Source: an uncultured Chlorobiaceae bacterium
Lineage (GTDB): Bacteria; Bacteroidota; Chlorobiia; Chlorobiales; Chlorobiaceae
Reading direction: 5' to 3'
Length of the DNA: 35,606 nt
Assembly (NCBI GenBank): GCA_903939765.1
Contig: CAJAIK010000084.1
Location: 1 to 35,606, forward strand
The notes under the pieces were generated by a model. It worked only from the letters and a program-made list of their open reading frames with translations, searched no databases and was not told where the DNA came from. The translations under genes and the position numbers were made by a program. This document shows, piece by piece, positions 23,878 through 28,727 of the stretch (positions are counted from its first letter, which is position 1; each line of letters starts with the position of its first letter).

Positions 23878-24330
23878 TTATTTTTTGAGGGCTGTGATGA
23901 CGATGTCGAGGATTTCTGGTTTGTCTTCGTCCTGGACTCCCCAGATGGGGCGTGCGGGAAAGTTGGCTTTTTTGCGGCCGTCCTCAAATTGGTGGTATTT
24001 GAGGTAGCTTTGGCTGGTGAGGTAGAGTTGGCCTCCGCTGACTTCGTAGTCGAGAGATTGCCGGAGCTGGCCACCGGCTACGAGGATGTGGCTTTCTTTT
24101 TTGTATTTGCGGAGTTTTTCCGCTTTTGTGCTTTCTGCGAGGGGTTTGTAGGCGACAGGTCGCCCTCCTGCGTCGATGGTTTTTTTTGCGCTGAGTGCCA
24201 TTTGGGTGCCGATTTGGCTGAGTACGCTGTGATCGCGCAGGGTTGCCTGGATTTTTCGGGGGAAGTTGGCGATTTCGCGGCGTGCGGTATCGAGGCCTTC
24301 TATTTTAATTTCGATGATTTGGTTGCTCAT
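23878..24330 (-). CDS. Virion morphogenesis protein, Mu gpG-like
   Basis: This 150-residue protein contains DTARREIANFPRKIQATLRDHSVLSQIGTQMALSAKKTID. It later has the conserved LVAGGQLRQSLDYEVSGGQLYLTSQSYLKYHQFEDG and the ending FPARPIWGVQDEDKPEILDIV. These match Phage_tail_S / gpG (PF05069-type) proteins. In Mu-like phages it acts at the head-tail joining stage. It starts within the end of the upstream 221-residue gene (4-bp overlap) in the minus-strand head operon. Confidence 0.82.
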   Translation of the reverse strand: MSNQIIEIKIEGLDTARREIANFPRKIQATLRDHSVLSQIGTQMALSAKKTIDAGGRPVAYKPLAESTKAEKLRKYKKESHILVAGGQLRQSLDYEVSGGQLYLTSQSYLKYHQFEDGRKKANFPARPIWGVQDEDKPEILDIVITALKK

Positions 24331-24992
24331 TTGAACAGCTCCTGCATGTTGTCGAAGTGTGCTCTGGTTTGCTGCATTGCTTCTTCGGGCGTTAGGTCTT
24401 GTTCCCTGATGGCGCGTTGCTTGTTGACTGGAAGGAGCAGGAATGCCCGGCGTTTAAGGTTCTGGCTCATGTCGTCCCAGAATCCCCATTCAGCGGCCTG
24501 GCGGATTTCCGTATCGAGGAGCTGGACGGCGGGGATGCGGAACTTGAGTTGCTCGGCGGCCAGTCGTTTGCTTGTTATTGCGGTATGGACGGCGCTGTAG
24601 GCTTGCCAGGCTTCGTCGTGCGAGGGCAGGGGCTGGTAGCGGTTGCCGCTGGCGAAGGTGGTGCGCTTGCAGTGTGTAATCCAGTCTGGCAGTTCGGCTT
24701 TTGTTATGCCTCCTTGTTGCAGGGTGAGTGCGATGCCTGCATAGGGCGGGTCACCGGTATACTTTTTGCCTTTGATGCTTTCGACTTCTTGCAGTGCAGC
24801 AAGGATCTCTGAGCTTGTTGCTTTGGTTAGGTGGCGAGAGGCTTCCAACAGGGTGTCTTTCTCGGTTTTTTTGCCGAGGGTTTCGACGGCGATATACCGG
24901 AATTGTTCGGCCTTGATTTTGTGCATCAGGGCGGTCATTTGGGCTTGTTGTGCGCTCCGGTTGCGGAGGGTTTTGGTGATGTCGTGACTCAT
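24327..24992 (-). CDS. Unknown protein between gpF and gpG
   Basis: This 221-residue, mostly helical protein opens MSHDITKTLRNRSAQQAQMTAL. It later has ALQEVESIKGKKYTGDPPYAGI, AVQLLDTEIRQAAEWGFW and ALHL-free charged helices. It overlaps the gpF stop and the gpG start by 4 bp each, so expression is coupled. No equivalent stands at this position in Mu. I recognise no domain; an accessory head-morphogenesis role is inferred from position only. Confidence 0.65.
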   Translation of the reverse strand: MSHDITKTLRNRSAQQAQMTALMHKIKAEQFRYIAVETLGKKTEKDTLLEASRHLTKATSSEILAALQEVESIKGKKYTGDPPYAGIALTLQQGGITKAELPDWITHCKRTTFASGNRYQPLPSHDEAWQAYSAVHTAITSKRLAAEQLKFRIPAVQLLDTEIRQAAEWGFWDDMSQNLKRRAFLLLPVNKQRAIREQDLTPEEAMQQTRAHFDNMQELFK

Positions 24993-25870
24993 GGGGTTAC
25001 GGTTTTTTCTGTTGTTGCAGTCTCTTTTGCGAGATCGACAAGTTTTTGTTTGATAAGCTCTCTGGTGGCTTTGCTCATGGCGCTCAGTTTGTGGTTGAGC
25101 CAGTCGGCGTAGTTGCCTACTTTGTCGCCAATGAATTCGGCGTTGGCGAGTTGGCTGCGCATTTCGGGGGTGACGGTGTCGGGTCCGGTAATGCCTCTCT
25201 TTTCCGCTTCCAGGCGGCTGACCGGAATAGCGGTGCAGCGGCAGTTGAAGCCGACTGGCGGGTAGTATTGGCTGTCGGAGGTTTTGAAGATTTTGCCGTC
25301 GAGGGCTCGGTGGCTGGCACGGACGCGTTCGTCGTGTGCGGTGCTGTACTGCCAGTATGGGTATCGGTCGGAGACTTCCTGGAGTTTTGCAAACTGGCCG
25401 GCTCCGAATGCCATGGAGGTTTCGTTGCGGTAGATGCGCTCTGCCTGAAAGCTGTTGAGCCTTGTGACGCCTTGTTTGTCGAAGACTTCGTTGGCGGTTT
25501 TGCGCCAGTCGCGGAGGCTTTTGCCTTCGGCAAGGGATTGTGCCAGGCTTTCTTTTACGGCATCGGCGAGTTCTGCGTCGGTGATGACGGCGCTGCAGAA
25601 TCCTTTGAGTCGGTGGAATGCTGCGGCGTCTTTGTTGCCGAATTTGAAAAGGCCTTTTTTGATGGGGTCGGCAGCGGAGAAGGTTGTGCCTTCGTGCTGC
25701 TGGATCCAGTCGTTGACGCTCGCAGCGCCTTTGCTCCAGGCGTCGTTTAATGCTTGTTCAAGGGCTGTTGACCAGGCGTTTATAAAGTCTTCATCAGGCT
25801 GTGGGTTGAGGATCCTGTTTGTTTCGTTTTTATCTCCAGGGAGCCCGCGATACCCTTCGCCCGTCAGTGC
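24989..25870 (-). CDS. Head morphogenesis protein, Mu gpF/SPP1 gp7 type, without a conventional start
   Basis: This minor head protein is injected or located at the portal in Mu/SPP1. The frame runs from the A9 run at 25871-25879 to a stop at 24989, about 293 codons, the usual gpF size. The body includes LKGFCSAVITDAELADAVKESLAQSLAEGKSL and the core SFQAERIYRNETSMAFGAGQF. A DERVRASHRALDGK motif and PPVGFNCRCTAIPVS (cysteine and histidine cluster typical of the domain) follow. The first in-frame ATG/GTG/TTG is the ATG at 25414, which would delete about 150 family-typical residues. I infer entry by -1 frameshift from the portal gene; CTG at 25865-25867 or a sequencing error in A9 are alternatives. 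Confidence 0.78.
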   Translation of the reverse strand, partial: ALTGEGYRGLPGDKNETNRILNPQPDEDFINAWSTALEQALNDAWSKGAASVNDWIQQHEGTTFSAADPIKKGLFKFGNKDAAAFHRLKGFCSAVITDAELADAVKESLAQSLAEGKSLRDWRKTANEVFDKQGVTRLNSFQAERIYRNETSMAFGAGQFAKLQEVSDRYPYWQYSTAHDERVRASHRALDGKIFKTSDSQYYPPVGFNCRCTAIPVSRLEAEKRGITGPDTVTPEMRSQLANAEFIGDKVGNYADWLNHKLSAMSKATRELIKQKLVDLAKETATTEKTVTP

Positions 25871-27150
25871 TTTTTTTTTAAACCTTCGGCTGCGCTGAGG
25901 AGGGGGTCGATATCGTATCCGTTCGAGAATACGGTGACGGGGTTTGGTGTTGCGGGTGTGGCATCGTCGAAATCACCCTCTTCGTATCCACGCCGTGCAA
26001 GGAGTTTGAGCCCCACTTTTTTCCCTGTGGATTGAGCATAGATTTTATCGATCTCAGCCTGCTCTTTTGTCGTTTGTGCCGGTTTTGACAGTACGAAGCT
26101 CAGCTCTTCGTCATCGCTGCCGGGCAATTTATTGAGTTCTTTTGTCCACCGAATTACGGTGTTAAAAAGTTCTTCGGCCAGAGTTTTGGAGCTTTTTATT
26201 GCCCCATCCCGAATTTCTGATCCTGTCTGGCTGCTGGCGCGTGCTCCGACGTCTCCGAGCTGCATAGAGAGGTCTGATCCCATCCAGAGTTTGTTAATTT
26301 TGGTGACGGCGAGGCTATCAAAAGCGGTGAAGACGTCACTGCTGCTTTTGCGGCCACGGTTTTCTTTTTGTTCGGCCCGAACTCCTTCGAAAAGCACGGC
26401 GACACTCCGACGTCGCAGGACTGATAGTGCCGTCTGGACTTTGTTGATATAGTTCTGGTTGGCATCCTGGGATACGTATGCTATCCAGTGGTCGCGTCCG
26501 TCGTCTTCTAAAAATTGCAGCAGCCACTCGAAGTTGTTGTTGAGCCCTTGCACGAGCCAGTAGACGATTTCGAGGAGCCCCAAGCCGTAGGGGTTTTTGT
26601 AGCTGTGTCCGTGGCGGATGAGGATGAATTTCCGGGGGTATTTTTCATCAAGCAGAATACCGTCTTTATTTTCTTTTGTGATGAGCCTGAGGTTGCCTGC
26701 CTGGTCGAAAAGGAACCATTCACGGGGTTTTTCGGTGATGGTAATCGGTATGACGGTGTTACCATCTTTAGCCCACATGACTTCAAAAACAGTGTATCCG
26801 AATTCCCTTGCGCTGACGGCGTTGCTGCAGATTTCAGGGATATTTGGCAGACTTTTGAAGAGCGATTTGAACCATGCGGCTCTCGGGCCGTCTTCTTGTG
26901 CCTGGCTTACATCCCACTGGAGCGCTTTGACACCGTCGTGGATGTTGAGTGATGCGGCGGAAACGTCTGGCTGGAGCAGTGTCTTTTCGAATTCAATGAT
27001 CTGTTTGCTGATGGTTTTGAGCACCCGGCTTGGGTGTGGCATCAGATCAGCAAGGTTGGCGATTGCCTCGACGATTTCGCGTGTGGCGATGTCGTTGTGC
27101 AGGTTGGCGATGTTGCTTTTTATGGGGTTGCCGTTGCGATCGAGTATCAT
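25864..27150 (-). CDS. Portal protein, Mu gp29 type (DUF935)
   Basis: This 428-residue protein begins MILDRNGNPI, as in gp29-like proteins. Hallmarks are REFGYTVFEVMWAKDG, KFILIRHGHSYKNPYGLGLLEIVYW and the helical stretch NNNFEWLLQFLEDDG. The central VAVLFEGVRAEQKE...SDVFTAFDS portion is also typical. It forms the dodecameric DNA gate of the capsid and docks the terminase. It overlaps the terminase stop by 4 bp and terminates 4 nt after an A9 run beyond which gpF continues in the -1 frame. The standard product ends GLKKKH; a portal-gpF fusion of about 720 residues would result from frameshifting. Confidence 0.88.
   Translation of the reverse strand: MILDRNGNPIKSNIANLHNDIATREIVEAIANLADLMPHPSRVLKTISKQIIEFEKTLLQPDVSAASLNIHDGVKALQWDVSQAQEDGPRAAWFKSLFKSLPNIPEICSNAVSAREFGYTVFEVMWAKDGNTVIPITITEKPREWFLFDQAGNLRLITKENKDGILLDEKYPRKFILIRHGHSYKNPYGLGLLEIVYWLVQGLNNNFEWLLQFLEDDGRDHWIAYVSQDANQNYINKVQTALSVLRRRSVAVLFEGVRAEQKENRGRKSSSDVFTAFDSLAVTKINKLWMGSDLSMQLGDVGARASSQTGSEIRDGAIKSSKTLAEELFNTVIRWTKELNKLPGSDDEELSFVLSKPAQTTKEQAEIDKIYAQSTGKKVGLKLLARRGYEEGDFDDATPATPNPVTVFSNGYDIDPLLSAAEGLKKKH
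25871..25879 (-). other. A9 slippery run joining portal and gpF frames
   Basis: On the coding (minus) strand the sequence reads GGT TTA AAA AAA AAG CAC TGA in the portal frame. Nine consecutive A residues lie 4 nt before the portal stop codon. A one-base backward shift on A AAA AAA enters the gpF frame (AAA GCA CTG ACG), which is open for about 290 codons. Homopolymeric A9 also promotes RNA-polymerase slippage. Confidence 0.7.
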
Positions 27151-28727
27151 TGTAAAAAGCTCCTGTAGAGGTTGAGATCGTGGTATTGGTGTTCTGGTAT
27201 GAGTATTCCGCCAGGAGTCATTTTTGTAGCCGTGTTTGCTGCGGCAATGAGGGTATCAAGGCTTGGTGCATTGCCGCTTGCGGCGTGTATGGCTAAACTG
27301 GCGGCGGTGTAGTAGTCGCCGTGGCTGTTGGGGTCGAGTTCGTTTTCTTTTGCGACGTAGCGGATGTTGCCGGCATCTGTGCGCTCTTTTTGGATGCTGT
27401 GGAAGTCGTCTCGGACAATGTCGTTGACGGGTAACTTGAGCGTTTTGTCGATCAGTTTCCGATAGACTGCATACGCAATGGTTTCTTTGAGTACCAGTGA
27501 GAAGTCAATCTTTTCGACGACAAATTCTCCGAATCCGGGTTTTCCGTCTCCGCCTTTTTGGAGCCGCTCGACGGTTTCACGGCCCATTCCGCGATTGTCA
27601 ACACATGCGCGGACAAACCGGTTGATCCGAATCAGTATACGGGCGCAATCCTGCTGTACGGCGAAGGGCATATTTTCGAGCGCGCAGATTGCCCGCACAA
27701 AGGTGATGCCGGCGATTTCTTCAGTCAGGGTGAGGACGGTGTAGTTGACGTCTCGCCCGATATCCATACCGAGATAAAACCTTCCGTATCCGAGTATGGA
27801 GGCTTTGAAGGCGATGGACTCAAACCATTTTTTGGCCTCTTCTGATTGGCCTTCACCGCTGAATTTTTTGATCTCTGCGTAGAGGATATCTTCGATTTCG
27901 CAACTGATTAAAAGATCGTAGCTGAAGAAGGCGCCTTCTTCATCTTCTGCGATGCAGCAGTATTCTTGCGCCCAGCGTTTTGGCCCTTCTTCGCGTTCGA
28001 GGTTTTGGAGCCATTCCTGCTTTTCTGCTTTGGAGAATTGGCGTTTATAGATTTTATCGAGCAGTCCTTCAGCGACTGCGCGTTGAATTGGGATGCTGAT
28101 AAGGTTCCAGTCGGGGCCGTATTTCCCTGCCCGGAACTTTTTTATCATTTTGTTGAACTCGCTGCTGACTCCTTTATGCGTGCTGCAAAAAGTGAAGGGA
28201 AAGCGCCATTGCCTGGACGGCAGGATAGCATCGAGCATTTCTGCTTGTTGCTTATGGATGGCGAACTCGTCAGCCACCTTATAGCCTCGCCATCCTCTCA
28301 TGGCATCGGCGTTGCTGGAAAGTGCGGTTACTTCAAGCTTGTTCTGAAAGCGGACGTTGTAGGTGTGCACTTGTTCTTCTTCTTTGGTGCTGCTGTTGAA
28401 GACTTTGACCTCGTCTTCATAAGTAGCGTCTACGGTACTTTTTATCAGGCGAGTGAGCTTTGCCCATGCAGCACAGTCGGTAATAAACTGTTTTGCAAGG
28501 ATGCGAGTCTTTGTTGCAAAAAATGTCGGGTAGCGTCCCTCCTGCCCTGTCCATTTTTGCGCCTTGTAGGCGATGGCCCAGGAGAGTCCGGTCTGCCGTC
28601 CTTTTTCAACGAGTTGAGCGATGTGCTCATCGCGTATAACTTCGAGTTGGTATGCGAAGAAGACCTTTTCTTCGACTACCTCGGAGTGCGCTGCGAGTGC
28701 CTCTGGATGTATAGGTTTATCCTGCAA
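27147..28727 (-). CDS. Terminase large subunit, Mu gp28 type
   Basis: This 526-residue packaging motor has an N-terminal ATPase with a divergent Walker A GRQTGLS (43-49, as in gp28-like proteins) and Walker B KVADEFA. The conserved coupling segment FCSTHKGVSSEF follows. The C-terminal RuvC-like nuclease domain shows LGMDIGRDVNYTVLT (metal-binding Asp) and ACVDNRGMGRETVE. It packages headful DNA starting in flanking host sequence in Mu-type phages. It overlaps the small-subunit gene by 11 bp and the portal gene by 4 bp, the standard order on the minus strand. Confidence 0.9.
   Translation of the reverse strand: MQDKPIHPEALAAHSEVVEEKVFFAYQLEVIRDEHIAQLVEKGRQTGLSWAIAYKAQKWTGQEGRYPTFFATKTRILAKQFITDCAAWAKLTRLIKSTVDATYEDEVKVFNSSTKEEEQVHTYNVRFQNKLEVTALSSNADAMRGWRGYKVADEFAIHKQQAEMLDAILPSRQWRFPFTFCSTHKGVSSEFNKMIKKFRAGKYGPDWNLISIPIQRAVAEGLLDKIYKRQFSKAEKQEWLQNLEREEGPKRWAQEYCCIAEDEEGAFFSYDLLISCEIEDILYAEIKKFSGEGQSEEAKKWFESIAFKASILGYGRFYLGMDIGRDVNYTVLTLTEEIAGITFVRAICALENMPFAVQQDCARILIRINRFVRACVDNRGMGRETVERLQKGGDGKPGFGEFVVEKIDFSLVLKETIAYAVYRKLIDKTLKLPVNDIVRDDFHSIQKERTDAGNIRYVAKENELDPNSHGDYYTAASLAIHAASGNAPSLDTLIAAANTATKMTPGGILIPEHQYHDLNLYRSFLQ

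Follow-up and report, generated by a model that had tools for sequence, protein, structure and literature searches.

The DNA analysed here, referred to as the window, is the whole stretch of 35,606 nucleotides covering positions 1 to 35,606 of contig CAJAIK010000084.1, from an uncultured Chlorobiaceae bacterium (GenBank assembly GCA_903939765.1). It carries a Mu-like prophage of a green sulfur bacterium, in which the portal gene is directly followed by the gene of gpF, a minor head protein of the MuF type. The two reading frames meet at a run of nine adenines (A9): gpF is in the -1 frame with respect to the portal and is devoid of a start codon. The features of this junction are the following:

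25864 to 27150, minus strand: portal open reading frame (ORF; Mu gp29/DUF935 type), 428 amino acids, with the C-terminal end ...LKKKH followed by the stop
25871 to 25879, minus strand: candidate A9 slippage run, reading TTA AAA AAA AAG in the portal (0) frame
25870 to 25876, minus strand: A_AAA_AAG heptamer in the portal frame, a dnaX-type -1 site overlapping A9
25864 to 25866, minus strand: TGA stop of the unshifted portal, directly after the GCAC that trails A9
24989 to 25972, minus strand: gpF (MuF minor head protein) open frame, -1 with respect to the portal
25973 to 25975, minus strand: in-frame TGA closing the gpF frame upstream, within the portal gene
25226 to 25561, minus strand: Phage_Mu_F domain within gpF
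25412 to 25414, minus strand: first canonical start (ATG) of the gpF frame, inside the MuF domain and unlikely to be the real start

The portal belongs to PF06074 (Portal_Mu, E-value 1.9e-49, profile positions 4-322 of 336) and matches phrog_113 (portal, E-value 2.7e-40); its structure model resembles the portals of JBD30 (8rka) and Mu (9khx). The gene directly after it encodes a member of PF04233 (Phage_Mu_F, E-value 1.1e-21, profile positions 2-112 of 112) that also matches phrog_220 (E-value 4.3e-36). The structure model of gpF was poor (predicted local distance difference test score, pLDDT, of 54) and was left unused. On the minus strand, the 3' end of the portal gene reads GGT TTA AAA AAA AAG CAC TGA, A9 being followed by G (25870), C, A and C. 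No ATG, GTG or TTG is present in the gpF frame ahead of the ATG at 25414, and the frame runs to a stop at 24989; the translated part of gpF presumably begins within the A run (25879). When joined at the run, the two frames give a fused frame of 720 amino acids (424 + 296). Re-reading of the sequence bore out the description given in the original prediction, which was made from the letters alone: all the coordinates of A9 and of the GCAC and TGA that follow it in the portal frame are right, and the gpF frame is start-less down to 25414 and closed upstream by a TGA in the portal gene. Runs of A9 as such are no rarity in this genome, with 84 matches on the forward strand and 69 on the reverse (overlaps counted) in 2.98 Mb; the portal/gpF junction stands out in that the run is fixed there in position and length.

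Relatives were collected by protein-based searches, with the portal or gpF as query, of IMG/VR, GTDB contigs and whole genomes, and the A run was not used as a criterion. A scan with the DNA pattern A9GNNCTGACNG is biased towards A9, and its loci were counted only once the protein searches had recovered them. The same -1 arrangement, which the original prediction had proposed to look for in related prophages, was found: the window clade comprises 28 distinct junctions, with portal identity down to about 36%, all of them -1 and all with a homopolymer of at least nine at the frame change (A9 in 27, A10 in L063), although many of the loci are metagenomic and related, so that the counts are not independent. 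Same-genus portals, at about 50% identity, end with LKKK[HY] and the stop, and their gpF opens in the -1 frame with KKK[AV]LT. In nearly all relatives of the clade the stop comes directly after the run. In several members, among which L010 and L011, a stop in the gpF frame shortly before the run makes an upstream gpF start impossible as well. Among the remoter Mu-like portals and MuF genes retrieved with the proteins of the window, most start separately in the ordinary way, and a DNA similarity search in phages gave no match.

The run is conserved more strictly than the third codon positions of the portal. On a tree of 21 portals, these positions underwent 6.2 changes on average, and all but 3 of 405 columns varied, the three being Trp (TGG). 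The nine A columns, on the other hand, showed 0 changes in 20 sequences, and 0 also in the 15 that were not found by the DNA pattern. The codon preceding the lysines was TTA, CTA, GCA or ACA (20 sequences), with a third base that was always A; considering that TTA and CTA make up only 4.8% of the Leu codons in these genes, this fixed A argues that the length of the run is itself selected. Just past the run, wobble variability tracks the -1 frame, which is therefore read from the run onward. It is the length that is kept, and not the phase: the run has phase 2 in most clade members and phase 0 in L192/L193, L216 and the distant L249, where it reads AAA AAA AAA in the 0 frame, is still nine long and is followed by G, with gpF at -1.

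When the search was widened to the phylum, Bacteroidota prophages turned up in which the same -1 join lies at sites other than A runs, and an alignment of four of their gpFs collected about 100 loci. These query gpFs include the -1 region and may favour members of this kind; fused and ATG-started ones were recovered too. Loci with a possible GTG, TTG or ATG before the domain (L316, L350 and similar) were excluded from the start-less counts, and a few that seem to pair gpF with the wrong upstream ORF (e.g., L355) were treated as noise. This second family has 61 distinct -1 junctions, 42 of which are start-less, and an in-phase XXXYYYZ heptamer was present in 41 of these 42. The controls had one in 12 of 305 windows, and among the 19 junctions possessing a start nine are without a heptamer. 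The A-run type (n = 18) is 10 (16 cases), 11 (one) or 6 (one) nucleotides long, occurs in phases 0, 1 and 2 and is always followed by G. The T-run type (n = 16) is 6-8 long, phase-locked in 15 of 16 cases and followed by C. The remaining types are A_AAT_TTT/C (n = 12), G_GGA_AAG (n = 3) and others (n = 2). The mean z-scores of downstream structure, which derive from mononucleotide shuffles and serve as a guide only, were -0.71 for the A-run type, -2.76 for the T-run type, -1.51 for A_AAT_TTT/C and -0.39 for the controls. The A runs are without a downstream stem, and T_TTT_TTC and its like mostly have one. Judging from these sites, ribosomal -1 frameshifting is the likely mechanism at the T, AT and GA types, and transcriptional slippage at the A type.

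Sequenced phages are found among the members: the -1 slip site at the portal end is A10 in Winogradskyella phage Peternella_1 (L188), T_TTT_TTC in Elizabethkingia phage TCUEAP3 (L419) and A9 in fF4 (L421). In all three, the open frame begins ahead of the annotated gpF start, which in TCUEAP3 is placed 278 bases past the portal stop; this annotation is likely wrong in Peternella and TCUEAP3, and probably in fF4.

Natural in-frame fusions of the two proteins also exist. One of them, L008 (portal 53% identical), is 877 amino acids long, has A10 at the same place and contains, according to Pfam, a portal domain (PF06074), MuF (PF04233) and an ADP-ribosyltransferase domain. Portal and MuF are likewise in one frame in about 10 loci of the second family and in Porphyromonas phage 011a. 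Of the in-frame fusions examined, six (L332, L395, L400, L405, L420 and L008) keep a slip site at the junction, where a -1 shift would run into a stop and yield a short portal. A slip site retained in either polarity would be expected if the ratio of the two products counts, as with dnaX, and suggests that both of them are needed. The single-ORF portal-MuF proteins L008:3432-6062 and L420:1741-4299 end with an ADP-ribosyltransferase domain in the former and a PBECR2 nuclease-like domain in the latter (a Porphyromonas phage); in both, the toxin-type tail is covalently linked to the portal.

The host provides a parallel. Its dnaX gene (L120, G000:C115:167168-168271) is split at an A10 run (CAA AAA AAA AAG CAC CTG ACA...), past which the tau tail continues in the -1 frame. 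Among the 29 dnaX genes of the genus that were read, the split at A10 recurs in 25; three are fused with A10 and one is split at A9. Split dnaX genes in Chlorobi (A7-A10) were reported by Antonov et al. (2013), with transcriptional realignment as the suggested mechanism (PMC3711429), and in many genomes it is at nine nucleotides that selection against A/T runs becomes visible (PMC1088944). With dnaX slippage (A9 in Thermus thermophilus, A7-A10 in Chlorobi; PMC3711429) the junction shares the A9/A10 run, the -1 split and the combination of a short 0-frame and a long shifted product. Unlike dnaX, the genes involved here are phage head genes, and the shift adds an entire second protein (MuF) rather than a domain of the same subunit.

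Taken as one recoding unit, portal and gpF would be expressed mostly as the 428-amino acid portal, which ends just past A9. A fraction would shift to -1, most likely by RNA polymerase slipping on A9 to give transcripts with one extra A, and on these transcripts translation would continue into gpF, yielding a 720-amino acid portal-MuF fusion. Fused subunits would join the portal ring, and a limited number of MuF domains would thus be carried inside the head. On comparative sequence evidence, we regard -1 recoding at the window junction as very highly probable, and the explanation as a whole, with slippage on A9 and the fusion placed in the portal ring, as highly probable. The comparisons support the fusion of about 80 kDa, made by -1 frameshifting or by an extra A at A9, that the original prediction had put forward. 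What they show directly is the sequence and how it is conserved, the missing start and the relation of the two frames in different families; that slippage occurs, its efficiency, the set ratio at which the fusion would be made and the function of the latter are what we infer from them.

The original prediction took no side on the mechanism and was made without knowledge of how widespread the arrangement is. The present comparisons point to transcriptional slippage at the A-run type, and to sites of the ribosomal -1 kind at this junction in relatives. If the junction is recoded, such slippage would be the somewhat likelier route, because it depends on the length of the run, and ribosomal slippage at A_AAA_AAG on its phase: length is kept over phase in the window clade, and all three phases occur in the second family. 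A smaller, still considerable share of probability goes to ribosomal -1 slippage on the same run, or to both processes. A fusion that owes everything to the ribosome, shifting to -1 at A_AAA_AAG (25876-25870), and nothing to transcriptional slippage seems possible but on balance doubtful. An X_XXY_YYZ heptamer is indeed present in the 0 frame and is identical to the E. coli dnaX site (PMC3711429), and the corresponding junction of relatives has -1 sites other than homopolymers (T_TTT_TTC, A_AAT_TTT, G_GGA_AAG), with a stem downstream of several of them. Nevertheless, a purely ribosomal mechanism leaves unexplained the A-run length of 9-11 (in all but one case), the fixed A before the lysine codons, the drifting phase of the run and the absence of a conserved stem at A-type sites. 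A downstream stem or an upstream Shine-Dalgarno-like stimulator is usual for -1 ribosomal frameshifting, although not strictly required. In the window clade, no conserved downstream stem or Shine-Dalgarno stimulator was found (mean z -0.25 to -0.9, with differing structures), and a Shine-Dalgarno-like match is absent in several members.

Some observations weigh against the proposed recoding unit or against its transcriptional form. The A9 run holds two -1 heptamers, compatible with ribosomal slippage, and a downstream hairpin is present in some A9 members (L113, L070, L089). The single A6G case of the second family (L407) has a short run. The fused L406, L413 and L415 have no slip site at the junction, so some phages of this type make only a fusion, or use another route. 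Moreover, a possible start at the junction is found in two of the 28 clade members, L193 (ATGA) and L019 (GTG at +5).

This last point bears on the separate production of gpF by termination-reinitiation at the CTG at 25867, which overlaps the stop, or at another non-canonical codon. The CTG does overlap the TGA (CTGA) in most relatives, and ATGA takes its place in L193. However, the independent initiation at this codon that the original prediction had considered is disfavoured, given that the triplet is CTA (CTAA) in L004/L043 and that unrelated bases occupy the spot in second-family members. An ATG there would be the simple solution for reinitiation, yet it is seen in only 1 of 28 junctions; reinitiation also gives the A run no reason to be fixed, and in-frame portal-MuF fusions exist. 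We consider it very unlikely. Even more improbable is a start at the ATG at 25414, with the upstream part of the frame untranslated: although this is the first canonical start of the gpF frame, it is not conserved, and its use would drop the conserved F32, I33, G51, F67, G81, A97, L112 and W125 together with part of PF04233. A sequencing or assembly error, or a decayed gene, in the genome of the window has an equally negligible probability. The window comes from a draft assembly in 128 contigs, of which it is one, and homopolymers are error-prone, but the same A9 and frame recur in many independent metagenome and genome assemblies, A10 is present in the sequenced isolate phage Peternella, and both frames are under protein-level constraint. 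An error confined to a single genome was ruled out by the independent assemblies of relatives.

The genes next to the junction are:

27147 to 28727, minus strand: terminase large subunit, upstream neighbour (PF03237, E-value 8.6e-8)
23878 to 24330, minus strand: virion morphogenesis/tail completion protein (gpG-like), downstream neighbour (PF05069, E-value 5.8e-14; phrog_26)

The junction therefore sits between the terminase and gpG-like genes, and not in a tail module before the tape measure gene. Other loci of the collection showed further variation. At L005:1112-1744 (genome G029) the portal is broken by further stops and the A9 junction and gpF are intact, possibly as a decaying copy. C-terminal gpF tails of about 150 amino acids in L003:2733-4076, L004:2742-4079 and L061:2166-3500 are mutually related and absent from the window gpF; they have no Pfam match and resemble the swapped tails of MuF proteins. 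A second gpF-like stretch lies on the opposite strand of the same contig at L078:5791-6375 (+) and L080:953-1537 (+) (E-value 2.4e-60).

Programmed frameshifts and slippage in phage and insertion sequence (IS) genes are already known in kind. The lambda G/GT tail chaperones likewise use a -1 shift in a phage morphogenesis operon to make a fusion at a ratio, and their type of site, G_GGA_AAG, is also present in relatives of the window junction; unlike G/GT, the window involves other genes, another part of the virion and a homopolymer run. Phage A2, as cited in PMC5009743 and PMC10885494, has a -1 frameshift-extended major head protein, which in these accounts is a capsid protein and not a portal, and is without a MuF domain. 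In SPP1, gp7 (MuF) binds the portal gp6 in 1-2 copies per capsid (PMC5576092, PMC6316719); gp6 and gp7 are, unlike the case described here, products of separate genes that bind non-covalently. The in-frame fusions of Porphyromonas phages and L008 are one polypeptide, PF06074 and then PF04233, and a portal PHROG, phrog_2662, carries a MuF-like C-terminus; they differ from the window in having a single open frame, annotated simply as portal. PRFect flags MuF-like genes as possible frameshifts, listing them with VIP2 toxin genes as fusion candidates and not as portal with MuF (PMC10885494). The word 'portal' is absent from the accessible part of a 2016 recoding review, from GeneTack and from PRFect (PMC10885494), and text searches of the literature, with subscription papers and preprints outside their reach, found no account of a portal-MuF frameshift.

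It is fairly likely that these junctions represent an undescribed, Bacteroidota-wide recoding family, in which the -1 join of portal and MuF is achieved by two interchangeable mechanisms (transcriptional at A9-A11; ribosomal at T_TTT_TTC, A_AAT_TTT and G_GGA_AAG) and sets the number of portal subunits with a covalent, sometimes toxin-bearing, injected domain. By analogy with SPP1, a portal-MuF fusion made at low frequency would give a similar MuF stoichiometry covalently. Portal rings are treated as made of identical subunits; if this reading is true, a programmed fraction carries an extra domain, which would directly explain how the MuF copies of a phage are kept to a few. Transcriptional and ribosomal slippage could also be compared at a single gene junction across the many natural replicates that the family offers, alongside the parallel case of the host dnaX. 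Finally, the annotation of gpF starts would be corrected, and portal-MuF-toxin polypeptides would become recognisable.
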